A stretch of DNA of 38,788 bases. Origin: a virus. Every line of letters starts with the position of its first letter. Within the stretch, counting starts at the first letter, position 1. This document shows positions 7,314 to 31,800 of this stretch, one piece after another. The stretch is from the IMG/VR virus record IMGVR_UViG_3300027906_000054, positions 1 to 38,788 of that record; one strand, 5' to 3'. The notes beneath the pieces are model-generated. The model was not told the DNA's origin. It ran no database searches and saw nothing but the letters and a program-made list of their open reading frames with translations. A program made the translations under genes and the position numbers.

Positions 7314-7345
7314 TTTTCCACAAGTTATTGAGAACCTGTGGATAA
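7314..7345. other. Inverted DnaA-box-like pair 1
   Basis: TTTTCCACA (7314-7322) and TGTGGATAA (7337-7345), the latter the exact complement of the bacterial DnaA box TTATCCACA. The spacer is 14 bases. TTTTCCACA is, as I recall, the cyanobacterial form of the box. Confidence 0.55.
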
Positions 7346-7460
7346 CTTTAGAAATGGTTAATTAAATATACCTAGTGTGCTCTGATGATGCTGTCTTAGG
7401 CTACCAGTTAACGAACTGTCTGTCAAGCACCTGAAACACTCTGTAACACGTGCAGACACA

Positions 7461-7509
7461 TTAAAAACTGTCACAAGCACTCCCAAATCCCTTCGAGTCA
7501 TGCTATAAT
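7461..7509 (+). promoter_or_regulatory. Bipartite promoter module D
   Basis: TTAAAAACTGTCACAAGCAC (7461-7480) carries the AACTGTCACA half of the element but not its left arm. TATAAT at 7504-7509 starts 38 bases after AACTG and is preceded by TGC, a true extended -10. The next gene starts 120 bases away. Confidence 0.5.
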
Positions 7510-7629
7510 AAAGGCAAGATCACAGAAAACGCAGAAAAACGCTTTTCTTAGTTTTTCAAAAGATTAAAAAAGTTGTTTTTTTGTCTTTTTGAGTTTTTTG
7601 GGGTTTTAAATAACGTACTTTATCACAAA

Positions 7630-7869
7630 ATGGTGAAAATCACAGGATTATTTGACGAATTAAACTCAAGTGCGTGTAAAAGCGTACAATTAGCTGATAA
7701 TAGTGTTATAATCACTTACAACAGCAATAAAAGTAAAGAATATGAGTTTAAAGCAACAGATATAGATGAATTTACAGATTTGTTTGTTAAATGTATAGCA
7801 AACCAAGAATCAATAGGTAAACTACTACATTCACAGATTAAATCTGCAAATCTAGTTGAAAATAAATAA
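7630..7869 (+). CDS. KTSC-like domain protein (79 aa)
   Basis: 79 residues from ATG 7630 (longer in-frame versions run into the T-rich leader and give an unlikely N-terminus). The layout, with SSACKSV near residue 13, a beta hairpin VIITYNSNKSKEYEF, then a helix and a C-terminal ESIGKLLHSQIKS, follows the KTSC domain: a short beta-rich fold with a conserved polar start and a G(K/R)-hydrophobic-I ending. The role of KTSC proteins is poorly known; some are linked to RNA or DNA metabolism. A TTAAATAAC lies just upstream. Confidence 0.6.
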   Translation: MVKITGLFDELNSSACKSVQLADNSVIITYNSNKSKEYEFKATDIDEFTDLFVKCIANQESIGKLLHSQIKSANLVENK

Positions 7870-7892
7870 CCATACGTCCTTTACTCAAACCA

Positions 7893-8045
7893 ATGACACG
7901 TCCTACTAAGTTCGACACTAGTAAGTACAATGAAATCGATGAAGACTTTGAAGACTATGGGTATAACATTAAAAATGTGAAAAGATCACACAAAAAGAAG
8001 ATAACACGGTTTAAGGACGAAAAGTTGTATGAGTATGACAGTTAA
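7893..8045 (+). CDS. Small charged protein of unknown function (50 aa)
   Basis: 50 residues: an acidic N-terminal half (YNEIDEDFEDYGYN) and a basic C-terminal half (KNVKRSHKKKITRFKDEKL). This split of charge suggests an adaptor that binds nucleic acid through its C-terminus, but that is inference. It starts 23 bases after the KTSC gene. No family recognised. Confidence 0.55.
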   Translation: MTRPTKFDTSKYNEIDEDFEDYGYNIKNVKRSHKKKITRFKDEKLYEYDS

Positions 8046-8057
8046 ATAAGTGGACCT

Positions 8058-8080
8058 TTTTGTTAACACGTGTAACAAAA
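8058..8080. other. Dyad TTTTGTTA / TAACAAAA
   Basis: TTTTGTTA (8058-8065) and TAACAAAA (8073-8080) pair around ACACGTG. No T run follows. The next -10-like TATAAT begins at 8106, so this may be an operator. Confidence 0.4.
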
Positions 8081-8105
8081 GGGATTTGCAGGGACTGCGA
8101 AGGAT

Positions 8106-8193
8106 TATAATAAGAGAGGTCGCGCATCAGTGGCAAGAGATTTTGAAACCAGTTGAGAAACTGTCCACTATTCTCCCCACTGATGCCGATCTC
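8106..8193 (+). other. Possible promoter and long structured leader
   Basis: TATAAT at 8106-8111 would start an RNA near 8118. GCATCAGTGG (8124-8133) pairs perfectly with CCACTGATGC (8177-8186), and the flanking GAGA and TCG bases (about 8114-8122) extend the pairing to TCTC and CGA at 8187-8193. The loop contains the CAGTT/AACTG dyad of module E. The RNA could be a leader of the 55-aa gene or a free small RNA. Confidence 0.4.
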
Positions 8194-8203
8194 ATCCTAT
8201 ACT
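8149..8203 (+). promoter_or_regulatory. Bipartite promoter module E (for the 55-aa gene)
   Basis: CCAGTTGAGAAACTGTCCAC (8149-8168), with the CAGTT/AACTG dyad around GAGA. TATACT at 8198-8203 starts 39 bases after AACTG. The start codon at 8231 is 27 bases further. Confidence 0.65.
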
Positions 8204-8230
8204 AACAGAGTACTCAAGGAAATCCTTCCC

Positions 8231-8398
8231 ATGACAGTTACCCTCACCCTGACCATCGAAGAAGCGACAGCATACGTTGAAGCACTCGACAGGGCAACCG
8301 ACAATCCTTTTATCCAAGACGATGATGATTGTGCTCCTCTCTACACCTTGCTAGGCAAGTTGGAAGCAGTAGCAAACCCTCTAGAGATAGAGGGTTAA
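8231..8398 (+). CDS. Small acidic protein of unknown function (55 aa)
   Basis: 55 residues, MTVTLTLTIEEATAYVEALD onward. A beta strand is followed by two helices, with a Asp run (QDDDDC) between. ATG 8231 is preferred over the in-frame ATG upstream near 8183 because the -10 of module E lies at 8198-8203, and AAGGAAA (8217-8223) is a plausible ribosome site. An inverted DnaA-box-like pair begins four bases after the stop. No family recognised. Confidence 0.6.
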   Translation: MTVTLTLTIEEATAYVEALDRATDNPFIQDDDDCAPLYTLLGKLEAVANPLEIEG

Positions 8399-8401
8399 TC
8401 T

Positions 8402-8423
8402 TTCTCCACAACCCTGTGGAAAA
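8402..8423. other. Inverted DnaA-box-like pair 2
   Basis: TTCTCCACA (8402-8410), ACCC, TGTGGAAAA (8415-8423). The right half is the exact complement of TTTTCCACA; the left differs by one base. Confidence 0.5.
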
Positions 8424-8445
8424 CTACAAACAATCATTTATTATC

Positions 8446-8754
8446 ATGAGAAAAATCGAACGTCAAATGCAGTCTGCTATTCGCAACCGCACAAACTGGT
8501 CCAAAGCAAACACCTCAGTAGAGGTTGACACTGTGGGCGACACAACTGTTAGATTACATGGTAACAGAATCGCGACAATCTACAATAATGGTGATATACA
8601 ATTGTCATCATGTGGTTGGGAGACTGTTACAACCAAATCAAGATTGAATGCTATTCTTGATACATTCCTTTCCGGGATTGGCATTTATCAAAAAGATTTT
8701 GTTTGGTACATTGGCAAAGATACATTCTTTGACGGTTATGTAATTCACAGGTAA
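8446..8754 (+). CDS. Conserved phage protein of unknown function (102 aa)
   Basis: 102 residues from ATG 8446 (the longer in-frame version overlaps the preceding gene). The sequence has a basic N-terminal helix (MRKIERQMQSAIRNRTNWSK), a beta region (VRLHGNRIATIYNNGDIQLS), CGWETVTTKSRLNAIL at about residues 57-72 and an aromatic end (YQKDFVWYIGKDTFFDG). I recall the LHGN...CGW.T.TTKSRLNA signature from several phage genomes, always as hypothetical. A strong terminator follows 14 bases after the stop. Confidence 0.7.
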   Translation: MRKIERQMQSAIRNRTNWSKANTSVEVDTVGDTTVRLHGNRIATIYNNGDIQLSSCGWETVTTKSRLNAILDTFLSGIGIYQKDFVWYIGKDTFFDGYVIHR

Positions 8755-8768
8755 TTAAGTTTTTTAAG

Positions 8769-8800
8769 AAACTCACTTTTTCATTAAAGTGAGTTTTTTT
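8769..8800 (+). terminator. Strong intrinsic terminator
   Basis: AAACTCACTTT (8769-8779) pairs perfectly with AAAGTGAGTTT (8786-8796) around TTCATT, and seven T bases fill 8794-8800. It ends the 102-aa gene. Confidence 0.95.
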
Positions 8801-8821
8801 GTTTTTAAGATTAAATTAACT

Positions 8822-8846
8822 ATTATAACCGTATACGTGTTATAAT
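8822..8846 (+). promoter_or_regulatory. Near-perfect 25-base palindrome over a -10 hexamer
   Basis: ATTATAAC (8822-8829) and GTTATAAT (8839-8846) are exact complements around CGTATACGT, itself a palindrome plus one base. The right arm contains TATAAT (8841-8846). The arrangement suits a dimeric regulator that covers the promoter of the 53-aa gene. This promoter lacks the upstream element found in modules A-M. Confidence 0.6.
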
Positions 8847-8875
8847 TAATAATAACAATTTGGAGATTAACTCTT

Positions 8876-9037
8876 ATGACCACTTCAAACAGTAATCTAA
8901 ATGAGTTCTTTAATAGAGAATTAGAAGATCAAAAGAAAGAGTTAATTAACCAATATGGAGAGAAGGTAGGTAGTCAACATTGGAATGGAGAGGATTACTA
9001 TGATGGTGAATATACTAATCCACCATCCCACCGTTAA
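8876..9037 (+). CDS. Small acidic protein of unknown function (53 aa)
   Basis: 53 residues: an amphipathic helix (LNEFFNRELEDQKKELINQY) and an aromatic, acidic tail (HWNGEDYYDGEYTNPPSHR). TGGAGA at 8861-8866 is the ribosome site. It has its own operator-like promoter and a terminator that starts eight bases after the stop, so it is a single-gene unit with separate control. No family recognised. Confidence 0.6.
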   Translation: MTTSNSNLNEFFNRELEDQKKELINQYGEKVGSQHWNGEDYYDGEYTNPPSHR

Positions 9038-9045
9038 GGTGATTT

Positions 9046-9075
9046 AGTGGACACTTTGCAAACTGTCCACTTTTT
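9046..9075 (+). terminator. Intrinsic terminator overlapping promoter module F
   Basis: AGTGGACA (9046-9053) pairs with TGTCCACT (9064-9071), and T bases fill 9071-9075. The stem includes the AACTGTCCAC part of the promoter element. Confidence 0.65.
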
Positions 9076-9105
9076 CCACAACCCTGTGGATAAATGGAGT
9101 ATAAT
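9052..9105 (+). promoter_or_regulatory. Bipartite promoter module F (for the 73-aa gene)
   Basis: CACTTTGCAAACTGTCCAC (9052-9070); TATAAT at 9100-9105 begins 39 bases after AACTG. A DnaA-box-like pair fills the interval. The start codon at 9112 is only six bases after the hexamer, so the RNA may have almost no leader. Confidence 0.6.
9072..9093. other. Inverted DnaA-box-like pair 3
   Basis: TTTTCCACA (9072-9080), ACCC, TGTGGATAA (9085-9093). Both halves are exact DnaA-box forms. It sits inside promoter module F. Confidence 0.6.
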
Positions 9106-9111
9106 TTCAAA

Positions 9112-9333
9112 ATGAAATACAAATTCACTTGCACGTTTGACGTACCCGACTGTGACGATCTTCAACTGTCACACATACCAGAGGAGATCCTTGCTTACTT
9201 GGACAGTTATGAAAATGGCATAACCATTGACTACAACTGGCAAGACGTAGTTATCCACAACCCTGTGGAAAACTCCTATTCATTAGAGGTCGGCGAAACT
9301 TTGAGTTTTCCAGTACATAAGAAATCCGGCTGA
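9112..9333 (+). CDS. Small acidic protein of unknown function (73 aa)
   Basis: 73 residues from ATG 9112. An in-frame ATG at 9094 lies upstream of the TATAAT and is rejected. Sequence: MKYKFTCTFDVPDCDDLQLS, then helix, ending SYSLEVGETLSFPVHKKSG, probably a small beta-rich domain. The segment encoding DVVIHNPVENS contains the fourth DnaA-box-like pair inside the coding sequence. No family recognised. Confidence 0.6.
   Translation: MKYKFTCTFDVPDCDDLQLSHIPEEILAYLDSYENGITIDYNWQDVVIHNPVENSYSLEVGETLSFPVHKKSG
9251..9272. other. Inverted DnaA-box-like pair 4, inside a coding sequence
   Basis: TTATCCACA (9251-9259), ACCC, TGTGGAAAA (9264-9272). Both halves are exact forms of the DnaA box. Unlike the other three it lies within the reading frame of the 73-aa gene. 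Confidence 0.6.
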
Positions 9334-14843: not shown

Positions 14844-16639
14844 TGCCTTATACACAGGTTGCAAATTTAGACTTTGATCAAATCAAAGTATCTCTTAAGG
14901 AATATTTGAGAGCACAATCAGATTTTACTGATTATGACTTTGAGGGTTCTGCTCTGTCAAATATGCTTGACGTACTTGCGTATAATACGTACTACACAGC
15001 GTTTAATACGAATATGGTAGTCAATGAACTATTCATTGATTCCGCTACACTCAGAGACAACGTAATAGCAATTGCGAAGCAGTTGGGATACAGACCAAAG
15101 TCTGCTACCTCTCCTACTGCATATATTTCATTTGCTGTTACCTACACTAATCCTACAACAGATACAGAACTAGTACTTAAGAAGGGAACTGGATTCACTG
15201 CTGCATATGACAATACAATCTATCGTTATATTGTTACAGATGATGTTACAGCACAGGTAGTAAGCGATATAGCGACCTTTACGAACGTTGCGGTAAGAGA
15301 AGGAACATCAGTTACCAATACTTTCATTAAAGATACTAGTAATAAGTCACAGAAATTCATTTTACCTAACCAAAATATTGACACTAATACAATTAGTGTG
15401 AAAGTTTTTCCAAATGGAGGTTCATTTAACGAACCTTATCTCCTTGCACAGAATATTCTAGGAGTGGATTCTAATTCTAAGGTATTTTTCCTTGATGAAA
15501 TCACCGATGAGCGATATGAACTCATCTTTGGTGATGGAGTATTAGGTAAACTTATAACAAACAATACTAAGATAGAAGTCTCTTATATTACAACGTCTGG
15601 TCCTGAGTCTAATGGCGTTAAGACCTTTGTATTTGCTGGTGTACTAGAGAATCCTAACGGTGTGTCACCTAATCAATTCACCGTTGCTATCAACTCTACA
15701 ATCCCTGCTGCTGGTGGTGAAGTAATAGAGACAACAGATAAGATCAAATACAATGCACCGAAGACCTACGGGTCACAGGATCGTGCTGTTACATCTGATG
15801 ACTATAGTGCAATAGTTCGTAACATCTATCCTGCTACTAGCGACATCATAATATTTGGTGGAGAAGATCAAGATCCCCCTGACTACGGTAAGGTTTTCAT
15901 AGTATTAAAGCCTTCCGATGCGTCATATCTTACATCATTAACCAAATCTGACATTGTTGCCCAGTTAAAGAAATATGTTGTGGCATCTGTTGAACCAGTA
16001 ATCGTAGATCCTGCCATTCTCCATGTGGAAATGACCAGTAAAGTCTACTATGACGGACTAGTAACAGATCAGTCTACTGCTAATATCAGAGATAAGGTTA
16101 TTGGTCAGATACAAAAGTATGTTGATGCTTCTGATACAGAGAAATTTAAAGGTACATTCCGATACAGTAAGTTTATTGGAGTGATTGATGATGCTGATCG
16201 TAGCATTAAGTCAAACTTAACTACTCTTGCAATGAGGAGAGACTTCTATCCTCAGTTGAATTCTACTTATTACTATGAAGTCTGTTACCAAAATTCATTT
16301 TTAAAAGATTGCGACGAATCCGTCCTGTCATCAACTGGATTTAGAGTAACAGAATATCCTGAATATGATGTTTATGTTGAAGATAGGGATAGTAAAATAG
16401 TCCTATATAGACTAGATCCTGTAACTGGTGAAAAAGTTGTCCTAGACAAGGAAGTCGGTGACATAGATTATGAAAAAGGTGAGCTTAAACTTTATAATAT
16501 GACTATCATTAAGGGTAGTTATTTTGATAACCGTATCTCACTTACAGTAAAACCACGTTCTAATGATATCAGGGCTCTTCGCGAGATGTACCTTGACGTG
16601 GATATCGCAAATTCCAGTTTCGTTGCATATAAAGAGTAA
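14843..16639 (+). CDS. gp6: Baseplate wedge protein gp6 (baseplate J type)
   Basis: 598 residues, similar to T4 gp6 (660). The N-terminus ANLDFDQIKVSLKEYLRAQS followed by DYDFEGSALSNMLDVLAYNT is characteristic of gp6. The central region has the beta-rich baseplate-J-like domain: ERYELIFGDGVLGK (about 230-243) and the later APKTYGSQDRAVTSDDY. The C-terminal 150 residues are the part that in T4 binds the wedge neighbours. In T4, gp6 forms the dimeric ring of the wedge core. The start overlaps gp25 and the stop overlaps the next gene, both in TAATG. Confidence 0.95.
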   Translation: MPYTQVANLDFDQIKVSLKEYLRAQSDFTDYDFEGSALSNMLDVLAYNTYYTAFNTNMVVNELFIDSATLRDNVIAIAKQLGYRPKSATSPTAYISFAVTYTNPTTDTELVLKKGTGFTAAYDNTIYRYIVTDDVTAQVVSDIATFTNVAVREGTSVTNTFIKDTSNKSQKFILPNQNIDTNTISVKVFPNGGSFNEPYLLAQNILGVDSNSKVFFLDEITDERYELIFGDGVLGKLITNNTKIEVSYITTSGPESNGVKTFVFAGVLENPNGVSPNQFTVAINSTIPAAGGEVIETTDKIKYNAPKTYGSQDRAVTSDDYSAIVRNIYPATSDIIIFGGEDQDPPDYGKVFIVLKPSDASYLTSLTKSDIVAQLKKYVVASVEPVIVDPAILHVEMTSKVYYDGLVTDQSTANIRDKVIGQIQKYVDASDTEKFKGTFRYSKFIGVIDDADRSIKSNLTTLAMRRDFYPQLNSTYYYEVCYQNSFLKDCDESVLSSTGFRVTEYPEYDVYVEDRDSKIVLYRLDPVTGEKVVLDKEVGDIDYEKGELKLYNMTIIKGSYFDNRISLTVKPRSNDIRALREMYLDVDIANSSFVAYKE

Positions 16640-19600
16640 TGGCAGTTAAGACCAAAAGAATATCTACTCTTATAGAGTCTCAGATACCTGAGTTCATTAC
16701 GACTGAGTACGAACTTTTTACGAAGTTCATTCAGAAGTATTACGAAGCTCAGGAAGTTCAAGGTGGTCCCTTAGATGTTATTACTAACATTCAAAAGTAT
16801 AGGGATATAGATTATTATGAACAGAATCTTCTTAGACAGTCTGATCTCTTGGACGCTACTATTTCTGATAGTGCTGATACAATTGTACTACAAGATGCGT
16901 CGAGTTTTCCACAGAAAAATGGATACGTAAGAATTGGTGATGAAATTGTATTTTACAATACACGTACTGACACTGAACTGAGAGAGTGTGTAAGGGGCGT
17001 TAGTGGAAATACGACACTTGGTGACTTATACGACACTAGCACCTTCTCTAGCACCACTGCTGCACCTCACAACTCTGGTGAGATAGTATACAATGTTAGC
17101 AATCTATTTTTATATGCTTTTGTCAAGAGTTTTGAGAATCAGTATCTAGGTTCTTTCCCTGAGAAGTATCTCAAGGGTGAAGTTGATAAGAGAACCCTGA
17201 TTAAAAACATTCAGAAGTTTTATAAGGCAAAAGGAACTGATAGTTCCATCCAGTTTATTTTCAATACCATCGTTTCTAAGGATGTAGATAATAAACCAGA
17301 AGTTTATAAACCAAGAGACTTTACTTACAAGGCATCTAATGCAGATTGGATCAACGTATATGCTTTGAAGTGTAAGGTTGTTACTGGTAACCCTAAAGAT
17401 TTAATTGGTAAGAGTATTGTCCAGACTGCTACTGAGGAATATGGATATGCTTCTGCTACTGTAGATAACGTCTATGCAGAAGGTACTTCAGATGATGAAG
17501 TAATATGGAATGTAGTACTTGCTCCAGAAACTGTTAATGGTCTCTTCTCTGTCTCAACTAAGACTCGTCTTGAGAAGGATCTTAATAACACCGATGGTGA
17601 TGGTAAGCGTATTAATGTGTTTTCCACACAAGGGTGGGGTAATACAGGAGAAATTTTAATTGGTAGTGAAACTATAAAGTTTGATGACAAAACTGTATCG
17701 CAATTTATAATTTCAGAAAGACTAAATCCACTTGCTCATACAGCGAGCGACTCGGTTTATAAGCCTGTGTTACTAGAAGGTTCTAGTGTCAGTCTTTTAA
17801 GCCTTGGCGTAGTATATAATCTTGCTACAACAACACCTCAACCATATTCTTCAGTTGGAGATAAGATTCAGGTTTCGGAACCAGGATTTGAAACTATTGA
17901 TCCTAAGATCATACTTAATGGTCAACCTCGTTGGGTTCTTAATACTACAGGAGCAGTAACTGCTTCAGGACATGCTGGTGTAGTAAGTGCATTAGATCAA
18001 GTACAGACTAATGTATCATCTATCCATGAAGATGATCAGTATTATTATATTACTAGTTCCAGTTATCCATCATATAACATTTTAGATGGATCTACTGTAA
18101 CACAAACAGTTCAAGATCAGAAATTGCTTCGTCTTATAAGAAAGCAAGCAACTAGAACTACAGAAGTATATCCAACTCCAAAGAGAGATATTGGAATCCT
18201 TCTAAACGGTGTCCCTGTCTACGGTTACAAGGATACAGAAAGTATAAGGTTCGGTAAACTAGAAAGCATCGCAGTTAACACTCAAGGAAGAGGGTACGTT
18301 AAACCGCCCTTCGTTCTTGTAGATGGTGTAGCGAATAAAGCAAGAGCATTTCTTTCTGGTGAAGTTGTAGAGAGCATAGTTGTTGATACGACTGATGTTT
18401 TCCCAAGAACTCCTGACATTGTTATTACTTCTGGTAGAGATGCCGCAGTAACTGCTGTAGTAACAAGAAATAAGGTAACAAGCCTTACAATTACGAACGC
18501 TGGAGAGTTTTACAGTTCTCCACCAATCGTAAGAATTCGTGACACTGCGGGTAAGGGGCGGTTTGCCGAATACAATTCAGTCATCGATACTGATGGTAAG
18601 TTAACTGGGTTTGAAAAAGTTGACGAAGGTAACTTCTATAAGCAAGCGACAGTAGTTGTAGATATTATTCCTGTTGGGGAGAATGCTACAGGAACACCAT
18701 TACTTAAAGAGTGGAATAAAAATAGATTTGATAAGTATACAAGCAACTTAGATACCAACTATGGTTATCTTTTCGAGAATTATGATAATACTCGTTATTA
18801 TGGATATGCACATCTAGCTAATCCAAAAGCACTTAGAGTTGCACTTAATGATAATTTAAACGGTGCAGGTTCAGAACCAGCAACCTTTACTCATTCACCA
18901 ATCATAGGTTTTGCTTATGATGGTAACCCCATATATGGTGCTTTCGGTCATGAGAATCCACTAGATGTAAATTCCACAATTGTGAGAATGACTTCTAGTT
19001 ATTCTTTAAGTGGATCTCGTGTAGATGGACCATCACTAGTAACTTATCCATTAGGAACATTTACTAATGATTATACCTACACTCATAAGTCTGGATCATT
19101 AGATGGAAACAATGGTAGATTCTGTGTTACTCCCGATTATCCAGAAGGAACGTATGCTTACTTCTTAACTATCGATAGTACACAAGTACCACAGTTCCCA
19201 TATGTTATTGGTGAGAATTTCTATTCGTTACCTGTAGATAGTAACTACAACTCGAATATTAATCAGAATGATATTCCTAAAACTGCTAAGAGGTTCTTTA
19301 CTTCTGGTATGCCTAGAAATGGAGAAGGTGTAATTGCTTCTGTTTCTTCGATTACTCCAGGATCAATTGATAGTGTTTCTATAGAAAGTTCATCTTCTAA
19401 CTTCTCAGTTAACTCAAAGGTTCATTTTGATAATCAAGGAACTGATGGATCTGAGGCAGAAGCATTAGTTAACTCTGTTAAAGGTCAATCTGTTAGTTAT
19501 CTACAATCAAAAGAAAATAAGGTAGTTAAATTAACAACAATTCAAAGTGCATATTTGTTTGCTGATGATACATTAAGGCAGCCAGATACTAGTGCTTATG

Positions 19601-22600
19601 GTACAATAGTGGGTACAGTTTCAAGTGGTAATGTTATCGTACTGAAAAATGTTAGTGGTACGTTTAATGAAACTGGAACATTCTCTGCTGATATTAAAAC
19701 TTTCTCTCTTCTTGTAGATCAGAATAGTTCATATACAGAGGGTGCTACTTTAAGTCTTACTGATGGTGTTAATACACCTATTGCTACAGCACAAGTATTA
19801 GAAGGAACAAACAGTCAGAACGTAGTTAAGATCAAGGTTATCAGCGGTACTTGGATTATTGATACTGATTATTATATACAGTCAAGTGATTTATTCAATA
19901 CTTCTGGATCTAAGATAATAACTCTTACTTCTTTAAGTGATAATTTAGAACCATTTATTGTTAATCAGAGTGTTGCTCTTGTTGAAACATCATCTCCTCA
20001 TGGATTGGGTATTGATGATAAAGTAACAATTGATATTAACCCTGATGATGCTACTAAGACTAAGACATGGTACTTAAGAAAACGTTTGTATCAAGAAGTT
20101 ACTTTTAAAACACCATCTAACACAACAAAGGTTAATGATAGTGGTATAGGAAGATTTGAAATTCTAAATGGTGGTGCAGATTATACTGCTGCTACTTATA
20201 ATAACATTGCTATAACTGGTGGGTCAGGTACTGGTGCAACTGCATCTATTATAGTATCTGCTGCTGGCGTTGTATCAAATGTTACAATACAGAATGCTGG
20301 AAGTGGATATAAGAGAGGAGATTACGTTGGTGTTGCTGATGAGAGTCTTGTAAGATCTGGTGGATCAACAAGTACAGCAAGATTAACAATCTTTATTGAC
20401 CATGCAGGGTTTGCATCTAATAATACTGCTGTTACAGTTGATGATGCTACAGGATTTGCTGTAGATGATCTAGTAAAGATAGGTGATGAGATTATTAAGA
20501 TTACTGCTATTAACAGTAAGACATTAAGTGTTGAGAGAGGACAAGAATCATCAACTGCTGTTGATCATTTCGATAATAAAGAAATTGCTTTATATAAGGC
20601 ACAATATAATTTTACAAATAACTTCCAAGTAGGTGATATTGCTAATTCTGGATACATTAAAACTTATGATAGTACAACTCAAAAGGCAACTATCATATTT
20701 GATTATGCAGTAGAGAAGACTAGTGCTAGTTCAGTTGATATCAGTACTACATTCTTTGATTCCAGTACTCCTAAGAGATTGGTATCAGTTGAGTCATTCT
20801 CATCAATAGAGTATAAATTTGAATTCTCAGAAGATAATAGTACATTTGTACCAAACCCAGAATTAAATATACAAGAATTTTATAAGTATAAGTTCGATAC
20901 GTCTCATAGTAGTCTCAGTGGGACTTACTTTGATATCAGTCCAAGTAAGAACTACAACTTAATTACCTTAGAGAAGAATGCATCTACAACTCTACCTGGG
21001 AATAGTGGAGCATCTACAGATGTTAAATTTGGATTTGGGTCTAGATTAGTAAGTAATACCTATGACACTAAGGTAGGTACTGATTTTACCAATTTCTATT
21101 ACTTTGATAAGAATGCAGTTGTTAATAGTGGTAATGGAGTTTTTAAACTAGTTACCGATCCTTTACAAGGTACTAAGACAATTAATTATGTTACCAACAA
21201 TCGTTTTGTGTATGACTTGATTGGAGATGCTCCTCTTTGGGATGGATCGGGAACAATATCATATACTACAACAGGACAATTTGCAGTTGGTCAAATAAAA
21301 GATTTCAGTGTTATAAATCTTGGATCAAATTATAACAAGGTTCCTGTAATTGCAGGTGTTTCACCTAATTCTGATTATCAGGCAGAAGCAACTGTATTGT
21401 TTGATTCTATATCTAAAGTTGTAACTGGTGTTACTGTTACCAAGAAGGGTTCTAATTATGTTAATCCTAAAGTTGTAATAACTTCCACTACTACTAGTAA
21501 GAATGCAACATTTTCAGTTATTGCAAGAGTAGGTGAGATTTATCAGATAAATGTAGTCTCTCCTGGTGAAGGATATACTACTGCACCAGAAATAGAAATT
21601 GTAGAAGGAGATGTTAGAGCATATGCTGGAAGTACAACTGTAGGAGTACCTCAAAGTGTAACATTTACTAATAATGGTAGTGCTTTCCACTTAGACAAAT
21701 CAATTTCATCTAATTTCACTTCTCAGTACATAGTAGGACTTAAAACTATAAGTGGAGATTTCCAAAAAGGTGAAACTGTAGTACAGAAGATAGGAAACAC
21801 AGAAGTTGCTAGAGCAAAGGTTACTGAGTGGAGACTAGGATCTAACCTCCTGAAACTCCAGTCTGTGACTGGGATCTTGAGGGAGAATATTGCGATTGAA
21901 GGATTATCATCAGTATCTTCCGCAGTTATCAAATCTGTATTCGTTACTGGATTTACTGAAGACGTTACTAGTTTCTATGATAATCAAGGTTTCTCTAAAT
22001 CTGATAAAGGAAAACTAGGTGTATCTAATCAAAGGTTGATTGATAGTGCTTTCTATCAAGATTATTCATATGTTGTTAAATCTAAGACTCCAATTGAGCA
22101 ATGGAGAGACTTAATTAAGTCTACTACCCATCCAGCTGGATTTAGATTGTTTGGACAGGTTGATGTTGAGAGTGATGCCTCTACAACAATGCCAACTGAA
22201 GTTCCAAAGGCAGATCACTTCAGTATTGTTCAACTTTGGGATCCTGAAAAGAATAAGATCACTGTTGAGAATACTACAAGGATAATTACTCAGACGATTC
22301 AGAATGTAGAGAGTCAAAGAGTTCGTAAGGGTATTGGATCTGTTGCGACATCAGACTTTAATTTCAATGAGACTCGTGCTTTTGAGTTTACTCTTAATGG
22401 TGCATTTGATGGAACATACAACAGTGACGGTCAGTTAACTGGCACAAAGACATTCCAAGTACTAGATGAGAACGGTGTTGCATTCACTCCAATTAATGCT
22501 AATACTCTTATCGTAACATTAGATGGTATATTACAAGAACCAGGTAAAGCATTTACTGTATCTGGTGATAATATTGTATTTGCCCAACCACCACTAGGAC

Positions 22601-25600
22601 CAGGAGTTAAAGCAGGGTCAGCATATAATGGAGTTAAGTTCTATGGTAAGGTATTTGAATGGAAATCTCCAGGTGCTGCATACAATACAAGGTATCTTAA
22701 GAAGATTAAAAATATCTTCCAACGTAATGGAAGATGGTTAGATGCTGCAAATCAACTTGCAAGAAATAAAGAGTTTATTACATCTGAAGCAGTTGGATAT
22801 GGTAAGGAAACTTATCCATTACTAGATTGGGCAACTAAGAGTGATGATTATATCAAGGATATTGGATTTATCATTGACTCATATGAGCATGATTTGAGGT
22901 TTGGTGGTAATATTAAGACTATTGATTATTCAACTATATTTGCTACTACTCCTTATATTAAAGATAACAAAGATGAGTCCTTTAAAATATTCAAATATGC
23001 TACTAACTTAGCAAGACTTGCTATTAGAAATTGGGATTATGTTGAGACTAATGCAACATATACTACTAATACTACATCAGTAACAGTTACAAATACTGAG
23101 AACTTAGTAGTTGGAATGTATCTTACCTCTGGTAGAGCGTTCCAAGCAGATACTAAGATCACTTCTATTGATAGTCCTACTAAAATAACTGTTAGTAAAG
23201 CAATACTAGGTAATTCTACTGCATCTAGTAATACAACTCCAGCTAATTTAACTGGAACTACTAGTGGTGATGAGACTTATGGTGGTGTTGGACAAGTTCT
23301 TCTCAACGACACATATACAGTTTCTGTTGGTGATACTGTATCAGTAGGAGAAGATCCTGGTGGATCTCCTGAAATTATATTCCGTTTGAATGGAAGGAAT
23401 GACGGTACATTCTACGATGCTGCATATTTGATTGAAAGAAATAAACAGCATATCGTAGAAGAAGCAACACAAGCAATTACTGCTAACATTACTGATTATC
23501 AAACTAATCCAGCAACTTATCATCCTTATGTACAGTATTATGTCGAATCTGTAATATATCATTTACAATTGGGTGGTAACGAGAAGGTTGCTAAGATATA
23601 TGAGAGATTAAACTTTAAAGATTTACCTGCTGCTATAACAGGCAACCCATCAGAAGGGTTTAATACTTTGTTAGATGAGTGGAAGAGTGATATGTCTAAG
23701 ATGTTTGCAAAGGCATCTGAGTATATGACTTCTGCTATAAGAAATACACTAGCAGCAAAGGTTAACTCTACTGTAGATCCTAATCCAGATACCAGTATTA
23801 CAGCTGATAAGTTATCACCTGCCTGTGCTGAGGTAGCGTCTGCACTTGATACATTTGCTACAATTACTGCAACAGTTCTTACAGAAGGAGAAGGGTTAGT
23901 AGTAGCAACAGATATAAATTCACCGAAGATTGGTAATTGGACTACTACTGCAACATATACAAATTATAATATCATCAGTGATCCTTTATTGATTGCTAAG
24001 GATTGTGATGATGTAGTTTCTGCTGTTGATTCTTTATATGATAGTTTCCAAGATATTCTTAGTGACAGAGCTGTTACTAGAGGAAACCCAGATTATGTTG
24101 ATGGAGAGAATACAGACTTTGAATTGTATTGGGAAGATGGTAGTGCTGTAGACACTGATGTAGATGAAGATCTATTCTTAACTATTAATGCAGTTCTTCA
24201 GACACCAAAATATAGTGCTGCTATATCACAAGATTCATATTTCATTGATAGGACTACAGTACCTAATGTATTGAAGTTTAGCGTTGCACCTATTTGGGAT
24301 CAAGATCTTGGTGCTAAGAGTTTAGGTGAAGCAACTGCTGTTGAGAAAGTAACAGGAATTGGTGTTGGTAATTACAAACGTCTTACTATCGACTACGATT
24401 TAGTAGACGATGTAAAATCTGGTCCATTCTTAATTCTTGATGTAGAGGATAATACTTCACAAACTGTTGAACTTCAAGATTATTTGTATGTCTTCTTAGA
24501 TGGAGTCTTACAGAGACAGGGATATAGTTATACAATAGCAGGACCAAATATCTTCTTCAATGTTCCTATTAAGAAGGAAATGAAGATTGACATGCGTTAC
24601 CTCTATGGTAGAGATGCTGGTCAAACTCTAAACATATACGATTTCTCTCCTGATACCTACTTTGCTTATGGTACATTTGTACTAGATACAACTTCTGCAC
24701 AGGTTGATAGCTTCCTTACTTATTCTTGGATGGGTGAGAAGGTAGGTACTGGAATACATTGTTGGCAAGTAAGAGCTAACGGTACATATAATGTTATTGG
24801 TGAAGTAAGTAGTGCTTATAAGACTGCATCTACTTTATCCTTTAGTATTAAATCACAAAATGCTGCTGTTGAAGCAGGATTGGATCTGATCTTTGCTACT
24901 AAGACAGATTACACTAAGACATTTACATTTGCAGATTCTGAATTTACTAATACTACATTAACATTCACAAAGGATTCTACTGGTAGGAAGATACTGAATA
25001 GTGATAATGCTGTTTGGTATGGTACAACATTAGGTAAAACATATAGAAATCCATTTGCTAGTTTGTCTAATGGAGATCTTGTAAGAGTAGAAGGTGAAGA
25101 TACCTTCAGAAGAATTAAGAAAGTACCAGAATCTACTACTAGTAAAGATGGTAGAGGTGGAGAGCAATTATCAGATGACGTTTATAGTACTGTATCAGTA
25201 GAAGGTTATTCTGGTATTACTAGAGGTGAAGGTCTTAGTGTTGTTGCAACTGTTGATGGTGGTAAAGTTACTGCATTAACATGGAACCGTCGTAGTTATG
25301 ATCCATTAACTCAACCTACTGCATATCAATATTTTACACCTCCTGTTCTAGAATTCATTCCTGAAGATGGTACTGGTGGTGGTGCAAAAGCAGAAGTTAT
25401 TGTAAGTAAAGGTCAAGTAATAAGTGTTGATCTACTTGATGGTGGTTCGGGATATACTAAAGCACCTATCATTGTAGTTGCTAGAAGATTTGATATCTTA
25501 ACTGAAAGAGATATTGGTGTATCCATTATCAATGTTGAGATGGTTCCTCAAGTTGAGATTGGACAGGGTGCTACTTCTGCATCTAGGATTACTATTCTTG

Positions 25601-26955
25601 GTACTCAGGTTCAGGGTATCGATTCATTCTCAAGTACTTTATTCAATAGTCCTCTTGATGTTACTAGGAAGATAACAGCAGAACTTCAGATTGATACTGA
25701 TAATATTGCAGAAGGACAGTCTGGATTTGATATGCCAGCTGGACCTATACAACCTGCTGCTGTAAAAATTGTTTATGTTGAACCAGCACCTGTACTGATC
25801 GAAGGAGAAGGTGGAGCACTGAGAAATCAGTGGGAAGCAACTGTTCTAAGTGCAGAACTTCAGGATATCATACCTCTTGCTTCAATTACTACAGTTGGAA
25901 AGAGTATCGTTTCTACTTTAGTTCATGAGATTCATAATACAGCATTAGGTAATATCAATTACTTTGAGGATGCTGCATATACTAACGTTGATACTAATAT
26001 CGGTGATAGTATTATCTACATCCCAGACACCAGTAGTTTTGCATCTAATGGTCATCTGTTGATAGGTGATGAACGTGTTCGTTATTGGAGGAAGCTATCT
26101 GATCGTTTCTTAAATGTTGATCGTGGTCTATATGGAACTACAGATAAGTTCCATGCTGCTGGTACATATTTACGTCAAGTTCCAGAGATAATTTCTATCA
26201 TACCTGCTGGTATCGTTAAGATCGAGTCTGAAGTATCTGATTGTTCAATAATAAGTGCTGCTGCTGGTTCTTCTAGAGAATCCATATATCAACATCAGAT
26301 TGAAGTAGATAAGCAGAGTCCTCATGATACTTCCAGAGAAATTGTTGTAATACCACCTGAGACTGGTATTGTTGATAGGTATCAGGAAACTGCATTCTTA
26401 CCAGATCCTGTTGAACAGAGAAATGGTAATTTCGTTGATATTCCTGAACCATATACTGTTACTAAGAGAGATACTACTATAATTACAATTGTAAACGAGG
26501 TATTTGGTAGAGAGGTAGAGTATCGCGGAGATTATATTATTGGTAATATTGGGTCTACTATTGGTATGTGGGATCAGACAGGACATGATGTTGGCGCGTC
26601 CAATGTTTCTGGAATGACCATTGGAGAACTTGATAGAATCTTTGCTTCGATGGCAATTAAAGATTTCACCGATAGAACTCATTCTAATTATACTCTCAGT
26701 GGAGACTACTTCAATCTAGGTAGACCATCTACCCAAAACCCTGTGGCCATCTCAAGTTCCGCAGGTACAATAGGTGGTACTATCGTGGTACAAGATACAA
26801 CTTATTGGCCAGATACTGGCTACATATTTACGTCTGGTGGTACAGTTATACAGTACACCAGCAAAACTGCTACAACATTTGTAGGGTGTACGCTCACCTC
26901 TGGTCCTAACAATATTGCTTCTGGACACGAGTTAGTTCCGTATCACCCAACATAA
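16639..26955 (+). CDS. Giant baseplate/tail structural protein in the gp7 position (3438 aa)
   Basis: 3438 residues, over three times T4 gp7 (1032). The first 250 (MAVKTKRISTLIESQIPEFI onward) look like the cyanophage wedge-protein N-terminus. About 750-860 follow the YHYH pattern (GFAYDGNPIYGAFG, then GRFCVTPDYPEGTYAYFLT). Gly-Tyr repeats of the type GSGYxxAPxVxI recur around 550-660, 1170-1240, 1550-1670 and 2900-2960. A helical module DAAxxIxRNKxxI, ending in a YxxxLxxGGN-type motif, occurs twice, near 2034 and 2260. No transmembrane segment is seen. It most likely replaces gp7 and adds fibre-like decoration; the start overlaps the gp6 stop in TAATG. The main doubt is how much of it corresponds to gp7. 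Confidence 0.8.
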   Translation: MAVKTKRISTLIESQIPEFITTEYELFTKFIQKYYEAQEVQGGPLDVITNIQKYRDIDYYEQNLLRQSDLLDATISDSADTIVLQDASSFPQKNGYVRIGDEIVFYNTRTDTELRECVRGVSGNTTLGDLYDTSTFSSTTAAPHNSGEIVYNVSNLFLYAFVKSFENQYLGSFPEKYLKGEVDKRTLIKNIQKFYKAKGTDSSIQFIFNTIVSKDVDNKPEVYKPRDFTYKASNADWINVYALKCKVVTGNPKDLIGKSIVQTATEEYGYASATVDNVYAEGTSDDEVIWNVVLAPETVNGLFSVSTKTRLEKDLNNTDGDGKRINVFSTQGWGNTGEILIGSETIKFDDKTVSQFIISERLNPLAHTASDSVYKPVLLEGSSVSLLSLGVVYNLATTTPQPYSSVGDKIQVSEPGFETIDPKIILNGQPRWVLNTTGAVTASGHAGVVSALDQVQTNVSSIHEDDQYYYITSSSYPSYNILDGSTVTQTVQDQKLLRLIRKQATRTTEVYPTPKRDIGILLNGVPVYGYKDTESIRFGKLESIAVNTQGRGYVKPPFVLVDGVANKARAFLSGEVVESIVVDTTDVFPRTPDIVITSGRDAAVTAVVTRNKVTSLTITNAGEFYSSPPIVRIRDTAGKGRFAEYNSVIDTDGKLTGFEKVDEGNFYKQATVVVDIIPVGENATGTPLLKEWNKNRFDKYTSNLDTNYGYLFENYDNTRYYGYAHLANPKALRVALNDNLNGAGSEPATFTHSPIIGFAYDGNPIYGAFGHENPLDVNSTIVRMTSSYSLSGSRVDGPSLVTYPLGTFTNDYTYTHKSGSLDGNNGRFCVTPDYPEGTYAYFLTIDSTQVPQFPYVIGENFYSLPVDSNYNSNINQNDIPKTAKRFFTSGMPRNGEGVIASVSSITPGSIDSVSIESSSSNFSVNSKVHFDNQGTDGSEAEALVNSVKGQSVSYLQSKENKVVKLTTIQSAYLFADDTLRQPDTSAYGTIVGTVSSGNVIVLKNVSGTFNETGTFSADIKTFSLLVDQNSSYTEGATLSLTDGVNTPIATAQVLEGTNSQNVVKIKVISGTWIIDTDYYIQSSDLFNTSGSKIITLTSLSDNLEPFIVNQSVALVETSSPHGLGIDDKVTIDINPDDATKTKTWYLRKRLYQEVTFKTPSNTTKVNDSGIGRFEILNGGADYTAATYNNIAITGGSGTGATASIIVSAAGVVSNVTIQNAGSGYKRGDYVGVADESLVRSGGSTSTARLTIFIDHAGFASNNTAVTVDDATGFAVDDLVKIGDEIIKITAINSKTLSVERGQESSTAVDHFDNKEIALYKAQYNFTNNFQVGDIANSGYIKTYDSTTQKATIIFDYAVEKTSASSVDISTTFFDSSTPKRLVSVESFSSIEYKFEFSEDNSTFVPNPELNIQEFYKYKFDTSHSSLSGTYFDISPSKNYNLITLEKNASTTLPGNSGASTDVKFGFGSRLVSNTYDTKVGTDFTNFYYFDKNAVVNSGNGVFKLVTDPLQGTKTINYVTNNRFVYDLIGDAPLWDGSGTISYTTTGQFAVGQIKDFSVINLGSNYNKVPVIAGVSPNSDYQAEATVLFDSISKVVTGVTVTKKGSNYVNPKVVITSTTTSKNATFSVIARVGEIYQINVVSPGEGYTTAPEIEIVEGDVRAYAGSTTVGVPQSVTFTNNGSAFHLDKSISSNFTSQYIVGLKTISGDFQKGETVVQKIGNTEVARAKVTEWRLGSNLLKLQSVTGILRENIAIEGLSSVSSAVIKSVFVTGFTEDVTSFYDNQGFSKSDKGKLGVSNQRLIDSAFYQDYSYVVKSKTPIEQWRDLIKSTTHPAGFRLFGQVDVESDASTTMPTEVPKADHFSIVQLWDPEKNKITVENTTRIITQTIQNVESQRVRKGIGSVATSDFNFNETRAFEFTLNGAFDGTYNSDGQLTGTKTFQVLDENGVAFTPINANTLIVTLDGILQEPGKAFTVSGDNIVFAQPPLGPGVKAGSAYNGVKFYGKVFEWKSPGAAYNTRYLKKIKNIFQRNGRWLDAANQLARNKEFITSEAVGYGKETYPLLDWATKSDDYIKDIGFIIDSYEHDLRFGGNIKTIDYSTIFATTPYIKDNKDESFKIFKYATNLARLAIRNWDYVETNATYTTNTTSVTVTNTENLVVGMYLTSGRAFQADTKITSIDSPTKITVSKAILGNSTASSNTTPANLTGTTSGDETYGGVGQVLLNDTYTVSVGDTVSVGEDPGGSPEIIFRLNGRNDGTFYDAAYLIERNKQHIVEEATQAITANITDYQTNPATYHPYVQYYVESVIYHLQLGGNEKVAKIYERLNFKDLPAAITGNPSEGFNTLLDEWKSDMSKMFAKASEYMTSAIRNTLAAKVNSTVDPNPDTSITADKLSPACAEVASALDTFATITATVLTEGEGLVVATDINSPKIGNWTTTATYTNYNIISDPLLIAKDCDDVVSAVDSLYDSFQDILSDRAVTRGNPDYVDGENTDFELYWEDGSAVDTDVDEDLFLTINAVLQTPKYSAAISQDSYFIDRTTVPNVLKFSVAPIWDQDLGAKSLGEATAVEKVTGIGVGNYKRLTIDYDLVDDVKSGPFLILDVEDNTSQTVELQDYLYVFLDGVLQRQGYSYTIAGPNIFFNVPIKKEMKIDMRYLYGRDAGQTLNIYDFSPDTYFAYGTFVLDTTSAQVDSFLTYSWMGEKVGTGIHCWQVRANGTYNVIGEVSSAYKTASTLSFSIKSQNAAVEAGLDLIFATKTDYTKTFTFADSEFTNTTLTFTKDSTGRKILNSDNAVWYGTTLGKTYRNPFASLSNGDLVRVEGEDTFRRIKKVPESTTSKDGRGGEQLSDDVYSTVSVEGYSGITRGEGLSVVATVDGGKVTALTWNRRSYDPLTQPTAYQYFTPPVLEFIPEDGTGGGAKAEVIVSKGQVISVDLLDGGSGYTKAPIIVVARRFDILTERDIGVSIINVEMVPQVEIGQGATSASRITILGTQVQGIDSFSSTLFNSPLDVTRKITAELQIDTDNIAEGQSGFDMPAGPIQPAAVKIVYVEPAPVLIEGEGGALRNQWEATVLSAELQDIIPLASITTVGKSIVSTLVHEIHNTALGNINYFEDAAYTNVDTNIGDSIIYIPDTSSFASNGHLLIGDERVRYWRKLSDRFLNVDRGLYGTTDKFHAAGTYLRQVPEIISIIPAGIVKIESEVSDCSIISAAAGSSRESIYQHQIEVDKQSPHDTSREIVVIPPETGIVDRYQETAFLPDPVEQRNGNFVDIPEPYTVTKRDTTIITIVNEVFGREVEYRGDYIIGNIGSTIGMWDQTGHDVGASNVSGMTIGELDRIFASMAIKDFTDRTHSNYTLSGDYFNLGRPSTQNPVAISSSAGTIGGTIVVQDTTYWPDTGYIFTSGGTVIQYTSKTATTFVGCTLTSGPNNIASGHELVPYHPT

Positions 26956-28874: not shown

Positions 28875-31800
28875 ATGCCACAGAAGACAAACCTTAATGT
28901 AAGCCCTTATTACGAGGACTTTGACGTAAATAAGAATTTTTATAAAATTCTATTTCGTCCTGGTTACTCAATACAGGGTAGAGAATTAACTCAGGTTCAA
29001 TCTATTCTTCAGAATCAGATTGAATCTTTTGGTAAGTATGCCTTCAAGCAAGGTGAACTTGTCATACCTGGTGAGGTTGGATTAAACACGAAATTAGACT
29101 ACGTTAAACTATCTTCTGTTTCAGAAGTAGCCATTAACGAAGGTGGAGAGATTGTCTACAAGAAGTATGACATCACCTTATTAGTCGGACAGCAATTAAG
29201 AGGTATTACCTCTGGTGTAGTAGGAACTATATTAGCAACAAAACTAGCAACTGAATCATCCGCAGATACTGTCTTTGTTAATTACCTTAATAGTGGTAAT
29301 TCCAATACTGAGTCTACTTTTAGACAAGGTGAGACACTAGAAGTGGTTGATGGTGTTAATACTCCTCTGCTTGTCGTAGGTACAGATGGTAGTGTACTTC
29401 CAACTAGTATACAGGTAACCAACCCTGATACTGCTGAAGTTACTTCTCTCGAAAGTCCTGCAATGGGATACGGTTCTGCTGTTAAGGTAGAAGAAGGTAT
29501 CTATTTTGTTAATGGTTATTTTGTTCGCAATGACACTGGTCTTCTTGTTATTGACGAATATTATGACAAACCATCTGCTAAGGTTGGATTTACAATTGTC
29601 GAAGATGTTGTAACTCCAGAGGAAGATTCATCTCTGTATGACAATTCGATTGGATCTTCTAACTCTACTGCACCTGGTGCTCATAGATTAAAGATTGGTC
29701 TTGTATTAAAAGAGTTTGCACTTGATGCAATTACTGATAAGAATTTTATTGAACTCCTTAGAGTTTCTAGAGGAGTTATACAAAAGAAAGTATCACCAAC
29801 AGATTACAATTTACTAGAACAAACTCTTGCTCGTAGAACATTTGACGAGAGTGGAGATTATGTTGTAGATAGTTTTGCTACTGATGTTAGAGAGTATGCA
29901 CAGAAAGATGGTAATCAAGGTTTATATGCTGTAGATGAATTTGGTCTTTATAATGGATTCTCTGCTGGAGACGCATCTAAGAAGATGGTCGCTAGTATTG
30001 GACCAGGTAAAGCATATATTAAGGGATACGAAATTGTTAATAAAGAGACGAAATATCTCACAATTGATAAAGCAAAAGAAAGCGTATTAAGTGACAATGT
30101 AACATTAAAGACTAAAGGATTACCAACCTTAAGTGTTAACAATGTTTATGGAAGTATACCTCTTAATCAAGAAGGTTCTGACCTAACTTCATATCCTACA
30201 GTATTTTTATACAGTACATTTAATGATGGTTCTATTGGATTAAATGGAACTGAATTATCAACTGATCATAGACAGACTCTTAATAAGAGAGGATCTATAT
30301 TAGATTCTAATTCTGCTGTCAAGACTATTACTATTCAAGTAACTAATACTACTAATACTCTTGCTTCTATTACTGATGGAAACTTTACTACTATCTTAGG
30401 AAGTCTTTATATCATTAAGACAAGAGATGGTAGCAATGCACCTACATCAGTTACTCCATTATCTTCTTTGGCATATGCTAAGGTTAACAAACCACTCATT
30501 ACTCCTAGTGATGCAGTATTCTATCTAGAATTAACAGTTACTGCTAATAAGGACATACTTGAGTCATTACTACGTGAACAGGATTTAGGAGATTCAGATT
30601 TCAGAAGAAAGATATTCCTTACTGAATCTGATGCTCAGAATGATGTTGGAAACGATAATGCTCTTGGGTATATTGTAGATTATAGCGAAGTTATTACACC
30701 AGTTATAGGAACTGCTAAACCTAGTAACTTTGTACTACAGGAAAGGGGATTAGGATTCAATTCTGATTCTGATATTGTTCTTTCTAAAGGTCGTTTATCA
30801 CAAGGTAGTGCAGCATACAACACCATATTCGGATTCTCTTATTTTGATCCTCAGTTCTTCACTAAGATCACCTTACAGAAACCTGTAACGGGTGGTACGT
30901 TCGTAACGGGCAAATATGTATTCGGACTGACTAGTGATGCTTATGGGGTCATTGAGGGTGCTTCTAACGGTGTCTATTCAACTGCTAAGATACTCTTCAT
31001 CAAAACATTATCTGGTAAGTTCCAATCTGGTGAATCTATTAGAGATGAAGCAGGAAACACAATAAAGATTGCTAAGGATAATACAATCTCTCATTTTGTA
31101 GTTCAGAAGAGAGGTTTAGGATATAATGATGATTCGGAATTGACAATTAATGGAGTTGATTATGATAACTCTATCATTACTATATCGAGAAAGAATGATG
31201 GATCCATCTATGCATGTGACATCATTAATAGAAATGGATTAACTACTACTTATGCTCAGCCTCCAGCAGTAACAGTTAAGAATGGTCCTGGATCTAATCC
31301 TGGAGATTCTGCTGCTGTTACACCTGTCCTAGTAAGGAATGCTGTAACAACATACACACCACAGAACATTAAATCTATTGGTGGTCAATATGGATCAGGT
31401 GGAGCAAACAAGTTTACTGCTGATGTTGTAGTTGATGATAGATCTTTCTCAGAAATTAAAGATGTAACAGAGTTTACTTTCTTTGGTGCTAATGGTACTA
31501 ACTTCATCGAATCTACTAGTTTCAGTGCAGATGCTTCTAAGGAATTACAACAGGGAGATATAGTTCAATTCTCTGATAGTAACAATGCTTTAGTTCGTGC
31601 TATAGTTCAATATGCTACTGAACCAAAAGGAGCTGCTAAGAGTAGAGTCTATTTGGATATTGCTTTACCTGCTGATGTATCAAACACTAATATTGTTAGG
31701 TTGCGTCCAAAGGTAGGTAACAGTGCTGCTGGTACTTTAATCTATCCTACTGGTAGTAAGCAAGTACAGAAAGTCTTTGCTGGAAATGATGATAGTAAGA

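Follow-up and report, generated by a model that had tools for sequence, protein, structure and literature searches.

Cyanobacterial-type DnaA boxes beside a conserved noncoding core: a candidate replication-initiation locus in T4-like cyanophages

Here we describe four inverted pairs of DnaA-box-like sequences (TTWTCCACA facing its complement) in a 38,788-nt stretch of viral DNA, IMG/VR record IMGVR_UViG_3300027906_000054, positions 1 to 38,788 (hereafter the window), which is a fragment of a T4-like cyanomyovirus of the family Kyanoviridae. We lean towards the view that the pairs are cyanobacterial-type DnaA boxes belonging to a conserved locus, present in single copy, at which T4-like cyanophages would recruit host DnaA to initiate replication. 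This reading is favoured because host-type boxes, a putative promoter and a meltable tract stand together at one conserved noncoding place, a combination that has the make-up of an initiation site, and because a promoter followed by an unwinding element also makes up the T4 origins oriF and oriG (PMC3016281). Cyanomyoviruses are abundant ocean viruses in which it is unsettled where and how DNA copying begins. One conserved locus with host-type DnaA boxes provides an exact place to test for replication start. It also suggests that early replication or transcription in these phages can be coupled to the initiator of their host.

All four pairs named in a preliminary description of the window were recovered at their positions, none of them assigned to a strand. 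Pair 1 (7314-7345) consists of TTTTCCACA at 7314-7322 and TGTGGATAA at 7337-7345, separated by a 14-bp spacer, and lies directly upstream of the conserved core presented below. The satellite pairs 2 (8402-8423), 3 (9072-9093) and 4 (9251-9272) share the spacer ACCC, and seven of the eight halves are exact, the exception being the left half of pair 2 at 8402 (TTCTCCACA). Exact TTWTCCACA occurs nine times in the window against 1.3 expected, a count reached by none of 100 shuffles, and seven of the nine copies fall in the 1.96 kb between 7314 and 9272. In 200 second-order Markov simulations of the window, no span of this length held more than two boxes (seven observed) and no simulated sequence more than one inverted pair (four observed), which bears out the earlier judgement that such clustering would very rarely arise by chance.

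The sequence TTTTCCACA is the published cyanobacterial DnaA box (PMC4674748; PMC3480399). The phage copies share with cyanobacterial oriC boxes the flanking preference AG-TTTTCCACA-GG, and across phage and dnaN-linked oriC boxes there is a bias towards G or T before the box, G (in phages also A) after it, and T at +4. A shared tandem geometry could account for part of this likeness; an identical 12-bp tandem is present near dnaN in two non-picocyanobacterial genomes. The oriC regions beside dnaN in Synechococcus elongatus PCC 7942, Anabaena PCC 7120 and Cyanothece 51142 likewise carry TTTTCCACA in mixed orientation and partly at 11-12-bp spacing (PMC4674748, PMC3480399). Unlike them, the phage locus resides in a lytic T4-like phage, usually has 1-4 boxes rather than up to 12, is not linked to dnaN, and possesses neither a general DnaA-trio nor a GC-skew switch. 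The DNA-binding domain of DnaA is intact in 14 of 14 picocyanobacteria-like genomes tested. DnaA domain IV is absent from the 19 phages searched, and a phage-encoded DnaA was rejected for these.

Downstream of pair 1 lies a conserved noncoding core (7348-7518, about 170 bp, plus strand), which the preliminary description, right about the pairs, had missed, although it is the core that makes an origin reading credible. A profile hidden Markov model built from 21 sequences, an alignment of relatives, detects it in the window with an E value of 5.9e-22 and gives a single strong hit in every one of ten complete Kyanoviridae genomes (E 1e-20 to 1e-39). The profile also matches many environmental contigs and, weakly, phage Syn9; the core of S-BM3 is weak and rearranged. 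Its parts are an AT-rich start (GAAATGGTTAATTAAATATA), an invariant-rich block (GCTGTCTTAGGCTACC...GTCAAG) and an upstream promoter-type element (AACTGTCACAA), and it ends in TATAAT at 7504-7509 (plus strand), the putative -10 element of a promoter, whose aligned columns are nearly invariant in relatives. A generic promoter scan makes no call at this TATAAT, and the -35 side is not canonical. There follows an unstranded, T-rich noncoding tract of 78% A+T (7545-7629), which resembles an unwinding element and holds a second box pair in some relatives; the order of TATAAT and T-rich tract is aligned in relatives. Next comes a small plus-strand gene (7630-7869; phrog_4357), the positional equivalent of T4-GC_805. 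In most annotated genomes the core is likewise intergenic and upstream of a small gene (T4-GC_805 where numbered), and gene 25 lies 5.4-7.1 kb downstream in the four cases measured.

Annotated features that overlap the core, namely a tRNA-Leu in S-PM2 and short open reading frames in Syn1 and Syn9, are doubtful or weakly supported. The deposited tRNA-Asn and tRNA-Leu annotations of S-PM2 cover both boxes and core (record positions 19177-19333, or 1410-1566 of our extracted locus L210), and ARAGORN detects no tRNA at the site, so that this candidate was rejected. A structured RNA element was also ruled out: RNAalifold finds 0 consensus base pairs in the aligned core, the single-sequence fold of the window's core is no better than that of shuffles (z = 0.01), and Rfam returns no match. 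Given the lack of consensus pairing and the unremarkable fold, the core probably acts as DNA.

The boxes recur in relatives at the same place. Counterparts of pair 1 are found in S-PM2, S-CAM3, S-CAM1, Syn1, Sf-FR1, S-RIM32, S-RIM44, Sf-CH11 and Syn9. To avoid selecting on the boxes themselves, IMG/VR was searched with a core-only pattern, which gave 72 loci, 56 of them non-redundant. In these, exact boxes are confined to positions -70 to 0 relative to the core, +180 to +450 (the T-rich tract) and +0.9 to +1.03 kb, apart from a few that are no more than 400 bp away from it; the rest of the interval from -4 to +5 kb is free of them, and the same contigs have a background of 5 exact boxes in 423 kb. 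These loci thus present a cluster of DnaA consensus boxes at three fixed positions, the consensus being that of cyanobacteria in general; the oriC boxes of the sampled picocyanobacteria are mostly degenerate. An unsupervised count of 9-mers upstream of the core ranks TTTTCCACA first (21 loci, 0 copies outside), and 80 of the 81 boxes in core-selected loci are TTTTCCACA, the remaining one being TTATCCACA. They are arranged as 12-bp tandem repeats, as facing pairs with 4-, 5-, 12- or 14-bp spacers, as one back-to-back pair and as singles. Since arrangement varies in this way, the conserved unit is the 9-mer TTTTCCACA and not the palindrome, on which the emphasis had initially been misplaced.

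Some 1.05 kb downstream of the core, pair 2 falls in the leader of the Kyano_Gp96 gene (8446-8754), and the distance is found again in relatives, with boxes at +0.9 to +1.05 kb. For pairs 3 and 4, which lie about 1.7 and 1.9 kb from the core, the loci examined offer no clear counterpart, and both look like later copies. As already noticed from the window's sequence, one sits in a promoter gap and one inside a reading frame: pair 3 is 6 bp upstream of the TATAAT at 9100-9105, in the promoter of the gene at 9112-9333, and pair 4 is within that gene's reading frame.

The DNA next to the core is easily unwound, as at an oriC, in 10 of 12 complete genomes. A 100-bp stretch belonging to the least stable ~0.1% of the genome occurs within 450-500 bp of the core in nine of ten genomes and in S-RIM32, and in Syn1, S-CAM4 and S-RIM32 the least stable 100 bp of the whole genome lies in this range. 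In the window, the least stable 100 bp no further than 450 bp away begins near 7697, shortly after the start of the next gene, and reaches the 0.3% level of the fragment.

We infer from this layout that host DnaA would bind the boxes that immediately precede the core, and with them the satellite boxes, whether these lie in the T-rich tract or some 1 kb beyond the core. Bound DnaA, together with transcription from the core's promoter, may then help to open the adjacent, easily melted DNA, which could give the phage's own T4-type primosome access, so that replication would start at the locus.

Several observations weigh against a DnaA-dependent origin. No upstream boxes are present in 33 of 53 core-selected loci, and of the 42 loci with full coverage, 13 are devoid of boxes at all three sites. 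In the sampled genomes, which resemble picocyanobacteria in size, GC content and gene order, the dnaN-linked oriC regions mostly have no exact TTTTCCACA, with occasional exact copies; their boxes are mostly degenerate TTCCACA, some beside CTACTACTACT. DnaA itself is dispensable in some cyanobacteria (PMC7198777). The genomes of MED4-213 and Syn9 show no exceptionally unstable tract near the core, and DnaA-trio-like CTACTA/TAGTAG is absent from the window and found in only 8 of the 56 loci. A GC-skew shift near the locus, for which the preliminary description had proposed to look, did not appear: no consistent extremum or switch is seen at the core in 12 complete genomes. This last point is weak counter-evidence, because T4 has active origins outside skew shifts (PMC3016281). 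The original suggestion of a phage origin that uses host DnaA emerges from the comparison of relatives as the best-supported reading, its expected support from GC skew being missing.

At three candidate picocyanobacterial oriC regions beside dnaN (locus pairs L563/L556, L564/L557 and L565/L558), adjoining degenerate TTCCACA boxes are followed by CTACTACTACT and AT-rich DNA, a candidate compact DnaA-trio layout.

Because DnaA is dispensable in some cyanobacteria, a purely transcriptional role is a serious rival, unlikely as we hold it to be. The locus would be an early control region and not an origin, in which host DnaA, as a transcription factor, senses the replication or growth state of the host and represses or activates the adjoining promoters. 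DnaA regulates transcription elsewhere (PMC7198777), the core ends in a putative TATAAT promoter, and both the +1 kb site and pair 3 are directly upstream of genes. Taken alone, however, such a region leaves unexplained the exceptionally unstable DNA beside the core, and also why a ~170-bp core should be kept in single copy when similar promoter elements recur elsewhere.

It is improbable that TTTTCCACA is recognised by some phage-encoded or other host DNA-binding protein instead of DnaA. The site matches the cyanobacterial DnaA box exactly and has flanking preferences and spacing in common with cyanobacterial oriC boxes, and the 19 phages searched encode no domain IV; the idea draws instead on the mostly degenerate oriC boxes of sampled picocyanobacteria and on the box-less relatives, which carry different palindromes at the same place (TTCTCAATAAG...TATTGAGAATCAATAA), so that the recognised site can evidently be swapped. 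Among the 56 loci, the upstream site is occupied by DnaA boxes in 21, by a TTGAGAATCAATAA-type palindrome in 18, by a GGATACTACCC element in five and by neither in 12; with upstream boxes in only 21, the possession of DnaA boxes is no general rule. Box-less relatives (e.g. L339, L341 and L358, and L205 of S-RSM4) have at this place an inverted repeat GGTTCTCAATAAG...TATTGAGAATCAATAA, a possible alternative initiator or regulator site. A wider version of the initiation reading remains tentative, and we hold it with less than even confidence: a family-wide T4-like cyanophage origin that hijacks host DnaA, in some members by means of two parts that lie about 1 kb from each other; the initiator site upstream (DnaA boxes or another palindrome) would be exchanged between lineages in front of one core.

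It is very improbable that the satellite pairs serve mainly as a sponge, which would titrate host DnaA and so hold back host replication. The eight box halves of the window and the extra boxes of several relatives would suit such a role, but with 1-13 exact boxes per complete genome DnaA would not be depleted except at a high phage copy number, and neither a fixed position nor a conserved core nor unstable DNA is required of a sponge.

Scarcely credible, finally, is that the pairs are RNA hairpins acting as terminators or copies of a mobile palindrome: although each can form a hairpin (-7.5 to -12.3 kcal/mol) and pairs 2-4 have a 16-bp core sequence in common, the direct (tandem) repeats of relatives do not fold (-1 to -2 kcal/mol), a scan that calls terminators elsewhere calls none at any pair, and the pairs are not spread over genomes. 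Intrinsic terminators (stem-loop and U run) were rejected on that scan, in agreement with the initial remark that a simple hairpin terminator is insufficient. The mobile palindrome was rejected on its distribution. Across 19 complete Kyanoviridae genomes we count six inverted pairs of this pattern (one each in S-PM2, S-CAM3, Syn9 and S-BM3, two in S-RIM32), five of them in or beside the core and one 1.05 kb downstream; all occurrences are thus within 1.1 kb of the core, and not evenly scattered over the phage in the manner of a generic repeat. The ACCC spacer, too, fits the bases that the box prefers at its flanks better than it fits a mobile palindrome.

Among known T4-type origins, oriF and oriG have a promoter and then an A+T-rich unwinding element (PMC3016281), an order that the phage locus, likewise in a T4-type genome, would share through its putative promoter and the T-rich tract. 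They differ in using a MotA middle promoter and an R-loop, and no DnaA boxes have been described in them; cyanomyoviruses have no motA (PMC2984593). T4 oriE resembles the phage locus in its position upstream of gene 6, its early-type promoter and its reported 12-nt direct repeats (PMC3016281). However, the array that we detected in the oriE region has a 24-nt repeat unit and lies within gene 5; with only this coding repeat and no boxes, homology to oriE was ruled out, and T4 contains no tandem TTWTNCACA. A review of T4 replication does not mention DnaA, and our literature search, with partial coverage of subscription papers, revealed no published mention of DnaA boxes in T4-like cyanophages. 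On where cyanomyoviruses begin replication, the one origin named in a review (PMC2984593) is a single theta origin predicted for cyanophage Syn9. Syn9 carries the weakly matching core together with two boxes at 52565-52597.

A palindrome-only search of IMG/VR yielded at least 119 loci, and 55 of the matches listed are covered over at least one-fifth of their length by Kyanoviridae-like open reading frame matches. Contigs L037, L072, L120 and L032 contain TTTTCCACA inverted pairs and have little or no similarity to Kyanoviridae.

The closest named relatives of the window are the Synechococcus phages S-B43, ACG-2014i and S-CAM4, to which it is about 72% identical in nucleotide sequence where the two can be matched. 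Genes 25 and 6, of the baseplate wedge, lie at 14.4-16.6 kb and are followed by giant reading frames of 3438 (16639-26955) and 2707 (28875-36998) amino acids. Two adjacent genes at 624-2595 both match DNA methyltransferase families (phrog_67). A CCAGTTnACAAACTGGCACA-like element is repeated upstream of small genes at 2535, 2921, 9049, 9642, 10402, 11138 and 11501 and is also present inside the conserved core; it looks like a shared early-promoter element.

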